Notes under the pieces: generated by a model | What the model was told of the DNA's origin: nothing | Databases searched by the model: none | Seen by the model: only the letters and a program-made list of their open reading frames with translations | Program-made: the position numbers and the translations under genes | Source of the DNA: an uncultured Spirochaetaceae bacterium | Lineage (GTDB): Bacteria > Spirochaetota > Spirochaetia > Treponematales > Treponemataceae | Length of the DNA: 11,228 nt | Assembly: GCA_902796985.1 (NCBI GenBank) | Contig: CADBRC010000154.1 | Coordinates: 1-11,228 of the forward strand | Direction of reading: 5' to 3' | In this document: in pieces, positions 1,547-11,228 of the stretch | Position numbering within the stretch: position 1 is the stretch's first letter | How the letters are laid out: every line of letters starts with the position of its first letter

Positions 1547-1915
1547 ATGATGGAAGATGTTGCGATTGTAGGCAGGAAAACCTTTTTTATAGCCCCGGAC
1601 AGGTCCTTGGTGACCGATTTTGTCTGGAAAGGCTTATGTCCCACGGATATGAGTCATACGTCATTCCCGATGACGGTGTATGACCGTTTCAACGGCCTTA
1701 CGGTGAACTTCAACGGGCTGACTATCACGAGCGATGCGGTGCTGATTATGAAGCACAGCAGGTCGGGCGTGAACTGCGGTATTTTCATGTTCGTCAAGGA
1801 AGACGGATCGCCTGAGCTGGAGACGGCCCAGAAGGAGCTCTTGAACAAGAAGATATACAGTATACTTACGGCCGGGCGGAGGAGTGAGATGGACAGGGCC
1901 TTTGCCTCTGTGTAA
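1547..1915 (+). CDS. Small ORF of 122 codons, possibly a decayed PilZ-type protein gene
   Basis: The ORF opens with two consecutive ATGs directly behind a strong promoter. I have no confident family assignment for the intact frame. The N-terminus (KTFFIAPDRSLV, residues 11-22) and the C-terminal half (from GLTITSDAVLIM through NKKIYSIL) resemble, from memory, the two ends of a longer spirochaete protein. That protein has an N-terminal 'FFIAPD' domain and a C-terminal PilZ-like domain that binds cyclic di-GMP. Between 1618 and about 1675 the expected continuation (LERLMSHGYESYVIPDD) reads only in another frame. This suggests a one-base loss in the TTTT at 1618-1621 and a later internal deletion that restores frame. 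It could instead be a genuine short protein. The gene stops 66 bases before the chemoreceptor, and its stop codon forms part of that gene's -35 region. Confidence 0.55.
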   Translation: MMEDVAIVGRKTFFIAPDRSLVTDFVWKGLCPTDMSHTSFPMTVYDRFNGLTVNFNGLTITSDAVLIMKHSRSGVNCGIFMFVKEDGSPELETAQKELLNKKIYSILTAGRRSEMDRAFASV

Positions 1916-8141: not shown

Positions 8142-9074
8142 TCAGTTCTGGTCGAAGTAACTTCTCAGAATGATTCCCTGGTCGTAGTTGCCGAAGCCCT
8201 TGCCGAAGATGTTCATGCCTCCGACATGCTCCGCGTCATCCTTCACGCCGATCTTGACGCGGATGGAATGGTGCTCGCCTATCTTCAGGTCATCCAGCTT
8301 GACATCGGACATCTTTACCCCGTCTACGAAGCTGCCTTCCGCAGTGACGGCGAAGTGTTTGAGCAGACCGTATTGAGAGCCTTCCAGTTTCCACCAGAGC
8401 GGGGTGTAGCGGCCCCGCTTGTCGCCGTAGTCGCCGGGTGAAATCCATGTGCCCAGCTCCACTTTGTTTATCCAGACGGTGATGTCCGACGGCCAGTTGG
8501 CATTGGTTCCCGGGGTTTCCGACGAGAGTTCCATGCTCAGCTCAAGCTTGGAAAGCTTCTTGGGGTCGTACATCGTATTGTTCGGGAACTTGTACTCGAA
8601 GCTGCCCGAGCCGCACCAGAGCAGTCCGGCCTTCATGCGGTCGGGGTTCAGGAAGGAGTCCGGGATGTCCAGAAGCCCGATTATCTTTTCTGAGGAGCAG
8701 AGTCCGCAGGGGGCGGTCACCTTGCAGTCGGTGAAGATGCCGATGGGCATTTCTATCTCCGTGTAGTTCTTCTGCCCGTCCTGCTTCTCCGGGAACTGTA
8801 TCAGGATGTCCCGGAAGGAGGGGCGGCAGAGCTTCTGGTTGCCCTTCTTGGCCTTCACGGACTCGGTAAAGATAAGCCCCGCGTCTTCCAGAATCGATAT
8901 GTGCGTTGCGACGGTGGATTGGGGGAGTTTCAGCTCCTCGGCAATTTCGTTGATGTTCAGGGTCTTCTCCCTCGTCAGCCTGAGCATTTCCAATCGTGGT
9001 TCCGAGGCAAGAGCCTTGATTTTCTTTATATCCTCAAGAGGATTAATGACCATTGTCGTTTCTGATTCGCCCAT
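8142..9074 (-). CDS. ArsR-like winged-helix regulator with large C-terminal beta-rich domain
   Basis: The first 80 or so of 310 residues form an ArsR-type winged helix: ALASEPRLEMLRL (about 21-33), NINEIAEELKLPQSTVATHI as the helix-turn-helix (40-59), then LEDAGLI (62-68). A linker and about 200 residues of Trp-, Gly- and Asp-rich, probably beta-sheet sequence follow. The C-terminal part has cysteines at 117, 123, 126 and 154, including a CGLC pair (123-126), and motifs such as GLLWCG, EYKFPN and VELGTWISPGDYGD. I recall similar two-domain regulators in Firmicutes and spirochaetes but know no ligand. The extra domain suggests a small-molecule or sugar-derived signal rather than a metal. It converges on trpR (12 bases apart) and is divergent from the YidC-sulfatase fusion gene, which it may control. 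The ATG at 9074 is chosen from promoter spacing; ATG at 9053 is an alternative. Confidence 0.82.
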   Translation of the reverse strand: MGESETTMVINPLEDIKKIKALASEPRLEMLRLTREKTLNINEIAEELKLPQSTVATHISILEDAGLIFTESVKAKKGNQKLCRPSFRDILIQFPEKQDGQKNYTEIEMPIGIFTDCKVTAPCGLCSSEKIIGLLDIPDSFLNPDRMKAGLLWCGSGSFEYKFPNNTMYDPKKLSKLELSMELSSETPGTNANWPSDITVWINKVELGTWISPGDYGDKRGRYTPLWWKLEGSQYGLLKHFAVTAEGSFVDGVKMSDVKLDDLKIGEHHSIRVKIGVKDDAEHVGGMNIFGKGFGNYDQGIILRSYFDQN

Positions 9075-9140: not shown

Positions 9141-9169
9141 TTGAAAAGAGCTTGGGATTGTGCTATTAT
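9141..9169 (+). promoter_or_regulatory. sigma-70 promoter of the YidC-sulfatase fusion gene
   Basis: TTGAAA (9141-9146), a 17-base spacer and TATTAT (9164-9169) lie upstream, and the -10 box ends seven bases before the ATG at 9177. This implies a leaderless transcript. The -35 boxes of this and the divergent promoter are about 28 bases apart, so one regulator could affect both. Confidence 0.68.
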
Positions 9170-9176
9170 GTCGGTC

Positions 9177-11228
9177 ATGCTTCGAGTCGTTGCTTTTCTC
9201 TATTCCCTTGCCGTGGAACCTATAGAATATATCCTGGAAACGGCGTTCTGCTATTTCCGAAGCTTTTTCTCCGGACAGGCATCCATACCGATGGCGATAG
9301 TGGCTGTCAGCCTGCTCGTGAATCTCCTGACTCTTCCCATCTACAATGCGGCGGATGCGAAACAGCTGGAAGAGAGGAATCTGCAGAAGAAGCTTAGCAG
9401 AGGGATTGCGCATATAAAAGCGGCATTCAAAGGCGACGAGCGCTTCCTTATGCTCTCTGAGTACTACAGACAGAATCATTACAGTCCCCTTTATGCACTC
9501 CGGAGCTCGCTGTCCATTTTGGTGCAGGTGCCCTTCTTTGTTGCGGCCTACCACTTTCTGTCGAATTGTCCTGAGCTTGCTGGTGTCAGTCTCGGCCCCA
9601 TAGGAGACTTGAAAGAGCCGGATGCACTGCTGCCCATAGGAAGCCTGCGTCTGAACCTGCTTCCAATCCTGATGACCGCGATAAATATAGTCTCGGGGGC
9701 GATATATACGAGGTCCGCGCCTGTCCGCGAGAAAGTCCAGGTCTACGGTCTTGCCCTTGTGTTCCTTGTCCTGCTGTACGGGTCTCCGAGCGGCCTTGTA
9801 TTCTACTGGACGCTCAACAACCTCTTTTCGCTGGCGAAAAACTTTATACAGGGGCGCAGGAATCCCCGGTCGTGGATCAAGACGCTCTTCTGTCTTGCCC
9901 TTGTGGCTTTCTGCCTGTATATGGCGTTCTTCAAGCCTCGTGCCCACCTGTATAAGAAATTCGTGCTGTATGCCGTCACTCTTGCCGTTTGCCTTCTGTG
10001 CATCTTCTCCGGACGGGTAAAAGCTTGGCTTGCGAGAGTTCTTATGCAGGGCAGGGGAATAGCTGAACATGACATTAAGCTATTTGACCGAATATTCGTG
10101 ACTTCCTGTCTGGGCCTGTTTCTTCTTATTGGTAGTGCGATACCCCTTTCTGTCTTAGGCTCTGATCCGGATGCATTCTCGTTCCTCGAGGGCTACAGTT
10201 CTCCCTTCCGTCTTTTTTGGCCTACGTTCATAAAGGCAGCGGGGCTGATTCTGCTCTGGCCTCTCTTCATTTATAGCCTGTCTGAGGTGAAAGAAAGAAA
10301 GATAATGTCGGTTCTTTCAGGTCTGATGTTTGTTTCGGCTCTGCTGAACTTCTATACTTTCTCCGGGGACTATGGAATTTTATCGGATTTGCTCGTGTAT
10401 GAGCGTGATGATGTTTTTAGTACGGGGGTGGGAGTAAAATTTTTGAATCTGCTTGTTCTTGCCCTTGTTGCGGTGCTGGTATGTGTAACCATGCAAAAAA
10501 AACTTCGTAAGATTTTGCTTTTTATAGTCATTGTCCTCAATATTGCTGTGGCGGGTCACGCTCTTGTGGAGGCAGGAAGGACGAAGCGCGGGTATGACAT
10601 AGCTCTCTCCATCGTGCGGCGAAACGAAGCGAATTCGTCTGTGGAAAATATGGAACCGATCTTCACTCTGTCAAGAACAGGTAAGAACGTGTTTTGCATT
10701 ATGTTGGACAAGGCTACAGGGGCTTATCTGGAGGAGTGCTTTAGGGAAGACCCTAAATTGTATGAGCAATATGAAGGCTTTGTATTCTACCCGAATACAG
10801 TATCGTACAGTTATGGAACGCTTGCTGGTTTTCCAGGTTTATACGGTGGTTATGAATATGTGCCTGCCGTGATGAACCTGAGGAAGGACGTCTCGATGCA
10901 TGATAAGCTCGAGGAGGCAACATCTCTTTTGCCTCGGATTTTTTCAAGGAATGGGTATTCCTCCGTTATGACGGATATTCCTCCTGCAACATTAAGCACA
11001 ACAAAAGTTGATGCATATTTTATGGATAAGTTTCCAGAGAATATAAAAAGCTTTGTAACTGAACGCGTATATGAGAAAAGTTGGAGAAAAGAGCATGGTT
11101 TTGGTGTGTCCAACTTCCAGCTTGAAATTGATAGAAAGCGTTTTCTGTCTTATAGCGTTTTAAGAGCGTGTCCGAATTTTCTCAGGACAAAGATGTATGC
11201 TGATGGGAGCTACTTGATAAGTTACTAT
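9177..11228 (+). CDS. YidC/Oxa1-like membrane domain fused to a sulfatase/LtaS-type phosphotransferase domain, N-terminal part
   Basis: The frame is open for 684 codons from the ATG at 9177 to the right edge without a stop. Residues about 37-226 follow the YidC core. They include a first core helix ending in LLTLP (50-54) and a cytoplasmic charged hairpin (60-96). Then come SPLYALRSSLSILVQVPFF (103-121), further helices near 160-178 and 186-204, and GLVFYWTLNNLFSLAKNFI (206-224). The pore-groove Arg of YidC (R366 in E. coli) aligns with Asn49. About seven more hydrophobic segments follow (near 234-252, 261-277, 306-326, 347-366, 376-394, 421-438 and 445-461). A soluble domain begins at NVFCIMLDKATGAYL (504-518), the first strand and metal-ligand D510 of the alkaline-phosphatase/sulfatase superfamily. 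T548 in SYGTLAGFPGLYGG is the candidate nucleophile. I infer an outward-facing enzyme that transfers or removes a phosphate-linked or sulfate group on an envelope glycan. The 3' part is visibly richer in A+T than the 5' part. Confidence 0.78.
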   Translation, partial: MLRVVAFLYSLAVEPIEYILETAFCYFRSFFSGQASIPMAIVAVSLLVNLLTLPIYNAADAKQLEERNLQKKLSRGIAHIKAAFKGDERFLMLSEYYRQNHYSPLYALRSSLSILVQVPFFVAAYHFLSNCPELAGVSLGPIGDLKEPDALLPIGSLRLNLLPILMTAINIVSGAIYTRSAPVREKVQVYGLALVFLVLLYGSPSGLVFYWTLNNLFSLAKNFIQGRRNPRSWIKTLFCLALVAFCLYMAFFKPRAHLYKKFVLYAVTLAVCLLCIFSGRVKAWLARVLMQGRGIAEHDIKLFDRIFVTSCLGLFLLIGSAIPLSVLGSDPDAFSFLEGYSSPFRLFWPTFIKAAGLILLWPLFIYSLSEVKERKIMSVLSGLMFVSALLNFYTFSGDYGILSDLLVYERDDVFSTGVGVKFLNLLVLALVAVLVCVTMQKKLRKILLFIVIVLNIAVAGHALVEAGRTKRGYDIALSIVRRNEANSSVENMEPIFTLSRTGKNVFCIMLDKATGAYLEECFREDPKLYEQYEGFVFYPNTVSYSYGTLAGFPGLYGGYEYVPAVMNLRKDVSMHDKLEEATSLLPRIFSRNGYSSVMTDIPPATLSTTKVDAYFMDKFPENIKSFVTERVYEKSWRKEHGFGVSNFQLEIDRKRFLSYSVLRACPNFLRTKMYADGSYLISYY

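Follow-up and report, generated by a model that had tools for sequence, protein, structure and literature searches.

What is the function of a protein that joins, in a single chain, the fold of the essential membrane insertase YidC to a domain of the alkaline phosphatase (AP) superfamily? The question is raised by an open frame at the right-hand end of the DNA analysed here, a stretch of 11,228 nucleotides (the window) which makes up the whole of contig C154 of an uncultured Spirochaetaceae bacterium. The first-pass annotation of the window held that the two parts form a dedicated unit, in which the YidC part may have been recruited as a lipid- or substrate-handling groove beside an envelope-modifying enzyme. 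That the unit is a dedicated one is supported by the analysis described below.

The fusion gene

The frame extends from 9177 to 11228 on the forward strand (684 codons, no stops) and reaches the end of the contig, so that the gene lacks its 3' end. The start was chosen by alignment with homologues, and an alternative in-frame ATG at 9168 is possible. The N-terminal part, described in the first-pass annotation as a YidC core at about residues 37-226, is matched by PF02096 over residues 39-224 (E = 2.2e-21, 77 bits, cut-off 35; 80.3 bits in the genome search), which places the YidC/Oxa1-fold core at 9291..9848 (+). The same family is matched by 29 of 30 alignment rows at E up to 0.01. An AlphaFold2 model of residues 1-240 (pLDDT 89.5, pTM 0.81) bears out the proposed resemblance to YidC, its best Foldseek match being the B. 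halodurans protein (3wo7_B, E = 8e-7, TM 0.67/0.71, rmsd 3.4), and all eight PDB matches at E up to 0.001 were YidC (3wo7 chains, 3wo6, 6al2, 3wvf and 6y86). After the core there are seven hydropathy peaks at residues 234-464, in agreement with the earlier estimate of about seven extra membrane segments (9876..10568, +); the assignment also draws on loop charge and on the helices of a modelled paralogue, C177, described below. The loop charges of the window protein are consistent with location of the AP domain outside the cytoplasm.

The AP-superfamily domain begins near residue 497 (10665..11228, +), as judged from alignment and from the PF00884 match and Foldseek results obtained with C177. 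That such a domain starts here, as first annotated, is upheld by invariant columns and by the C177 match; the metal ligand numbered D510, however, is D511 when counted from 9177 (codon 10707..10709, +; D514 of C177). The nucleophile, which had been placed in a GT...P region at 547-553, is predicted to be T548 (codon 10818..10820, +; T551 of C177). Both D511 and T548 lie on invariant columns of the 30-row alignment. The C-terminal His and Asp-His ligands of the window gene would lie beyond the contig and are deduced from homologues.

Further copies are present in the source genome, the assembly of which consists of 426 contigs and is 75.7% complete. The paralogue on contig C177 is 60% identical over window residues 3-684, has 899 codons and is also cut at its 3' end. 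It scores above the Pfam cut-offs for both PF02096 and PF00884 (28 bits against 25 for the latter), so that the profile check of the second domain, which failed to detect PF00884 in the 3'-truncated window protein, succeeded in this paralogue. Of the two copies on contig C421, one lacks its 5' side but has the complete C-terminus, and the other is cut at the 3' side. The complete C-terminus was below the PF00884 cut-off (18.7 bits against 25), and this piece, from which the YidC part is absent, gave no PF02096 match. Contigs C216 and C316 hold partial copies. A YidC periplasmic domain was not found by Pfam in the window protein or in the C177 and C421 copies. In addition, contig C337 encodes one genuine YidC of 613 amino acids with both PF14849 and PF02096.

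Synonymous differences were saturated (pS 0.79-0.80), while pN was 0.26 between the window gene and C177 and 0.22 between the window gene and L069, a Treponema MAG from goat rumen; the window frame is therefore under purifying selection. A frameshift, chimera or assembly artefact is contradicted by this result and is ruled out by the architecture, which is unbroken in 149 distinct homologues of at least 840 amino acids. The single chain read from the window is thus genuine, with no frameshift separating its two parts.

Distribution of the family

Among the source genome and its relatives, 55 of 59 genomes gave some match, many of these being genuine YidC alone. The full-length matches, of about 900 amino acids, had no interruptions and often lay in tandem, as with the four copies of genome G048. 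A contig scan confirmed at least 549 homologous stretches, and 77 loci were kept, of which 43 are from Spirochaetota and 34 from Bacillota by title. The survey for the same architecture that the first-pass annotation had called for thus found it recurring in both phyla. Genes were called in a set of 102 loci made up of the window, four more contigs of the source genome and 97 neighbourhoods, some of which overlap or are repeated (L066 and L107, L078 and L113). The fusion gene was called in 99 of them; in L087, L016 and L017 the caller chose an opposite-strand frame, and their rows are absent from the locus counts. There were 166 fusion hits, representing 164 distinct sequences, 149 of them of at least 840 amino acids, and a single locus (L091) contained eight fusion frames, five full-length and three partial.

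The fusion was found in 102 of 392 sampled Spirochaetota genomes (E up to 1e-40), across 29 of 166 genera. Many of the named source records of the family are from gut or rumen samples, and its cultured carriers include Treponema bryantii B25 (L073) and Schwartzia succinivorans DSM 10502 (L142). In a quick tree of 80 rows, 33 Bacillota rows were separated from the others by a branch with support 100, with which a single transfer and common ancestry both fit. An origin from plasmids, phages or other mobile elements was considered and rejected. A tblastn search with a full-length protein (L084) matched 26 plasmid and 10 phage records. Coverage of the query stayed below 80% in all of them, and among the matches listed (20 of the 26 plasmid records) it was at most 24% and was of the YidC part.

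The groove of the YidC-fold domain

Residue 49 of the fusion (N49 in the window, codon 9321..9323, +) aligns, in a profile alignment to PDB YidC chains, with the basic residue of the insertion groove, which is Arg for E. coli and T. maritima and Lys for the genome's own YidC. It is Asn in 65, Ser in 47 and Thr in 42 of the 166 fusion copies and gapped in the other 12, ie all 154 aligned copies have one of these three residues. At the same position, 21 genuine YidCs (that of the source genome and 20 chosen from the listed matches of related genomes) have Lys (19) or Arg (2). A basic residue is found instead at position 109 (Arg in 116 and Lys in 38 of 156 copies), directly after three residues which have no E. 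coli YidC counterpart. Conservation of the YidC part was similar to that of the enzyme part, with a mean column identity of 45% and 33 invariant columns among 36 sequences, compared to 44% and 16 invariant columns among a different set of 25 sequences.

Lipid scrambling by way of the insertion groove is reported for YidC, that of E. coli included, and for other insertases (PMC10491306), and because of this a groove without its basic residue would be a reasonable path for a lipid or its head group. The suggestion that the YidC fold may act as a groove for handling lipids or substrates is consistent with these data.

The C-terminal domain

In C177 numbering, D514, T551, D798 and H799 are unchanged in all 160 copies that have the residue, of the 166 hits, and H735 in all 158. 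The nucleophile of formylglycine sulfatases is a Cys or Ser which is converted to formylglycine. Since the nucleophile here is Thr in 160 of 160 copies, a sulfatase of that kind is excluded; from the original description of the domain as 'sulfatase/LtaS-type', the LtaS-like character is kept and the sulfatase function is dropped.

The full-length model of C177 (pLDDT 79.9, pTM 0.70) had as its top Foldseek PDB matches PbgA/YejM (6xlp, ranked first), MCR-1, 3lxq and EptA, with E-values from 1.7e-7 to 1.7e-6; individual values were 4.5e-7 for MCR-1 (9nww), 1.7e-6 for EptA (5fgn) and 3.5e-6 for LtaS (4uoo, rank 7). Hydrolases were interleaved in this list (phosphonate monoester hydrolase 2w8s at rank 6, a chondroitin sulfatase at rank 11), and the AP part had modest TM-scores, about 0.3-0.5 when normalised to the target. 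The C-terminal profile matched L. monocytogenes LtaS (4uoo, E = 3.8e-4) and LtaP (4uop, E = 0.011); several sulfatases outscored LtaS (best 9e-7), although these were local matches, most covering fewer than 100 profile positions. PF00884, the 'Sulfatase' family, was matched by 27 of 30 alignment rows at E up to 0.01. The full-length LtaS model NF053595 gave 18.2 bits for one protein (L020) against a cut-off of 970 and was unlisted for the other three proteins scored. Assignment to the LtaS/EptA type is therefore made on the nucleophile, the ligands, the membrane setting and the gene company, not on overall similarity, and a Thr-nucleophile transferase is our best reading of the domain, its chemistry being predicted from sequence.

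Neighbouring genes

The most constant neighbour of the fusion is a gene for a protein of about 419 amino acids (median) with a hydrophobic N-terminus, which is probably membrane-anchored. It matches PF04464 (CDP-glycerol glycerophosphotransferase) with 38.1 bits against a cut-off of 22.1. This partner was called in at least 79 of 102 loci, a lower bound because gene calls can miss it. Beside the gene or gene array it was found for 85 of 131 distinct full-length fusion genes away from a contig edge, and was absent for 46; for 10 of the 18 distinct full-length genes at an edge it was present on the visible side. In the 392 Spirochaetota genomes the partner occurs in 102, across 30 of 166 genera (E up to 1e-40), with 98 genomes having both fusion and partner, four the fusion alone, four the partner alone and 286 neither. 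The Fisher value for this co-occurrence (7e-82) ignores relatedness and is not usable as a probability. The best reading is that partner and fusion protein act in one pathway.

Enzymes for making activated head groups are also encoded near the pair. When one representative of each was scanned, PEP mutase (TIGR02320), phosphonopyruvate decarboxylase (TIGR03297) and an NTP-transferase/2-aminoethylphosphonate-transaminase fusion (TIGR03301) were above cut-off; single representatives likewise identified choline/ethanolamine-type kinases (PF01633), an NTP-transferase fused to a HisC/CobD-like aminotransferase (NTP-HisC) and GT4 glycosyltransferases. Over the 102 loci, NTP-HisC was present in 18, choline kinase in 17, PEP mutase in 13, the decarboxylase in 11 and a PntC-like protein in nine, and at least one scored head-group gene or module in just 42. 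PntC enzymes, that of T. denticola included, are reported to activate 2-aminoethylphosphonate for surface tailoring (PMC6697681). The three scored head-group modules are those for activated phosphonate, phosphocholine and, putatively, an amino-alcohol phosphate. Of 233 eligible same-strand flanking proteins 129 were taken, and the families among them included NTP_transf_3 (22), Glycos_transf_1 (11) and PEP_mutase (5). Ordinary metabolic neighbours, for example acetate kinase (3), also occur among the flanking proteins.

A reverse search, starting from the head-group enzymes in the 59 genomes (E up to 1e-60), placed all seven NTP-HisC genes at 20-129 nt from a partner gene. For PEP mutase, 8 of 16 genes were at 11-116 nt from the partner, two more were within 8 kb of fusion or partner and six were elsewhere. 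Two of the eight are on contigs of one genome with equal score and are perhaps duplicates, and another belongs to genome G011, in which no fusion was detected. In the source genome, two partner genes each overlap the start of an NTP-transferase gene. On contig C57 this gene encodes an NTP-transferase/aminotransferase, and on C255 it is followed by a GT4 gene; both NTP-transferase enzymes were too divergent for inclusion among the seven NTP-HisC hits. Contig C127 has a PEP mutase, with no partner or fusion seen there. The window itself has a GT2 gene at 420-1445 and no scored head-group genes.

Proposed function and alternatives

From sequence and gene context, we give about an even chance to the fusion being an outward-facing phospho- or phosphono-alcohol transferase for envelope glycans or glycolipids, which works with the PF04464 partner and uses the YidC fold as a groove. 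It would be an inner-membrane enzyme with its C-terminal, metal-dependent Thr-nucleophile domain outside the cytoplasm. Cytosolic enzymes would produce CMP- or CDP-activated head groups, ie 2-aminoethylphosphonate, phosphocholine and probably an amino-alcohol phosphate, and the partner would load the activated group, on the inner face, onto a lipid or lipid-linked glycan. The YidC-fold domain, with its groove charge gone, would offer a polar groove for the passage or positioning of the head group, and the AP domain would then transfer it, via a Thr-linked intermediate, to a surface acceptor. LtaS and EptA draw on ordinary phospholipids as donors, so it may be some other step that the activated head groups supply. 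A treponemal LTA-like glycolipid is a candidate acceptor. A unique lipooligosaccharide has been reported from oral treponemes (PMC13252047). As a pathway assignment, surface decoration with phospho- or phosphono-alcohols is better supported than are the role of the groove and the direction (donor lipid or acceptor glycan). Against this transferase reading count the 46 fusion genes without an adjacent partner, the figure of 42 loci with a scored head-group gene, the six PEP mutase genes located elsewhere and the one in G011, the absence of such genes from the window, and the long branch formed by the window lineage (C177 and L069) in the quick 80-row tree. On the same side weigh the hydrolases found between the fold matches, the modest TM-scores, the sulfatases which outscore LtaS by profile and the C421 C-terminus that stays below the PF00884 cut-off. 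A more specific version is an enzyme that flips and transfers, the charge-less YidC fold being a translocation path which feeds the fused LtaS-type transferase, in a modular system with the PF04464 partner and exchangeable head-group cassettes. We regard this version as less likely than not.

Two other explanations concern the role of the YidC fold. The domain could still be an insertase or chaperone for the fused segments or for a client such as the partner, and merely be tethered to an LtaS-like transferase. The fold and core helices are kept, the hydrophobic N-terminal stretch of the partner makes it a possible client, and, with E. coli YidC reported to scramble lipids (PMC10491306), groove roles are not necessarily exclusive. 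This possibility, which we consider rather unlikely, is weakened by the replacement of the basic groove residue in 154 of 154 copies when 21 of 21 true YidCs retain K or R, by the genuine YidC already present in the source genome, and by the several copies in one locus (L091), which is unlike a housekeeping insertase. We place at about the same low level the idea that the fold is an inert scaffold which positions or dimerises the enzyme, with the AP domain and the seven segments providing all the activity. LtaS and EptA, with about five membrane segments each, work without a YidC part, and the loss of the groove charge would suit a scaffold; the YidC part is, however, about as conserved as the enzyme part (45% against 44%, in different sets), which a scaffold need not be.

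Two further proposals concern the enzyme domain, and both seem very improbable. A catabolic sulfatase or phosphodiesterase which trims host or plant glycans would agree with the PF00884 matches in 27 of 30 rows, with the high places of sulfatases and phosphonate monoester hydrolases in the profile and fold searches, and with the many records from gut and rumen. It is at odds with a nucleophile that is Thr throughout, not Cys or Ser, and with a protein which is membrane-embedded and linked to biosynthetic head-group genes. The top Foldseek match, 6xlp, could point to a lipid sensor or regulator of the PbgA/YejM kind, having the AP fold without catalysis. YejM is described as having no functional site, whereas the fusion retains its ligand and nucleophile residues, and several copies per genome are ill-suited to a single sensor.

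Relation to known systems

Both domains are already known; searches of open-licence literature turned up no description of the combined architecture or of the gene module. The fusion is like YidC/Oxa1 insertases in fold, in the order of the core helices, in its cytoplasmic C1 region and in matching PF02096, and differs from them in the N/S/T groove residue, in R/K109, in its seven extra segments and in the fused enzyme. With LtaS, EptA and MCR-1 it shares the Thr nucleophile, the Asp-His pair, the His ligand, a membrane anchor and a catalytic domain which, on its predicted orientation, is outside. The first metal ligand of LtaS and EptA is Glu, whereas that of the fusion is Asp; the fusion also has twelve hydropathy peaks and no overall sequence membership of that group. 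Like PbgA/YejM it combines multiple inner-membrane segments with an AP fold, but it keeps the catalytic residues and adds the YidC domain. The conserved partner belongs to the TagB/TagF-type CDP-alcohol phosphotransferases (PF04464), and is a separate gene, not part of the fusion. PntC-type activation is represented near the fusion gene by PEP mutase, phosphonopyruvate decarboxylase and the NTP-transferase/aminotransferase fusions; 'YidC' and 'sulfatase' are absent from the main text of the PntC paper (PMC6697681).

If the transferase reading is true, an essential insertase fold has been reused for envelope-lipid chemistry, and the fusion would offer a cis-linked case in favour of the proposed movement of lipids by insertase grooves. 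It would also be a candidate for the unidentified steps that bring phosphonates and phosphocholine to spirochaete and clostridial surfaces.

The fusion also bears on annotation. The NCBIfam model TIGR03592 ('membrane protein insertase YidC', cut-off 84.3 bits) gave 75.4 bits for the window protein, 68.1 for L019, 80.9 for L020, 81.7 for L142 and 85.0, ie above the cut-off, for L106, while models for the second domain came nowhere near their own cut-offs in these proteins. Judged from such scores, automatic naming of fusions as 'YidC' in databases is plausible, as the first-pass annotation had supposed. If the transferase reading holds, some proteins annotated as 'YidC' may be something else, and insertase counts in Treponema and Oscillospiraceae could include fusions.

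Residue 109 of the fusion protein

The codon for residue 109 of the YidC-fold/LtaS/EptA-type fusion lies at 9501-9503 of the window. The residue is arginine or lysine in 154 of the 156 fusion copies that align at this position and is specific to the fusion. It is located immediately upstream of the second core membrane helix and, compared to E. coli YidC, is directly preceded by three extra residues which have no counterpart in that protein. Arginine or lysine at this position is possibly a relocated charge.

Neighbouring genes and related loci

The gene for an ArsR-type winged-helix regulator (window 8142-9074, minus strand) is divergent from the fusion gene, with about 100 bp between them; the C-terminal 230 or so amino acids of the regulator are without a Pfam match. 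Zero Pfam matches were obtained for a 122-aa open frame (window 1547-1915, plus strand) that is flanked by a gene for a GT2 glycosyltransferase and a chemoreceptor-like gene.

A MobA-like NTP transferase and a HisC/CobD-like aminotransferase domain (threonine-phosphate decarboxylase family) are joined in one bifunctional enzyme at two loci of the window's own genome, L169:1097-2908 and L168:871-2400 (in the latter, Pfam matches the NTP-transferase part only), and at L071:12720-14693. This pairing is distinct from the PntC/2-aminoethylphosphonate transaminase fusion. The single chain may both make and CTP-activate an amino-alcohol phosphate, eg ethanolamine phosphate.

Fusion genes, or the accompanying PF04464 partner genes, are interrupted by contig ends in C154 (the window), C177, C216, C316, C421, C255 and C57 of the same genome. 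These paralogues probably break the assembly, so that their copy number there would be underestimated. An unusually large array of eight fusion-family open frames is present at L091, a 20.7-kb Clostridiales locus: five of at least 840 aa, one truncated at the contig end, and two short frames (354 and 579 aa) which, lying side by side, may represent one interrupted fusion copy.
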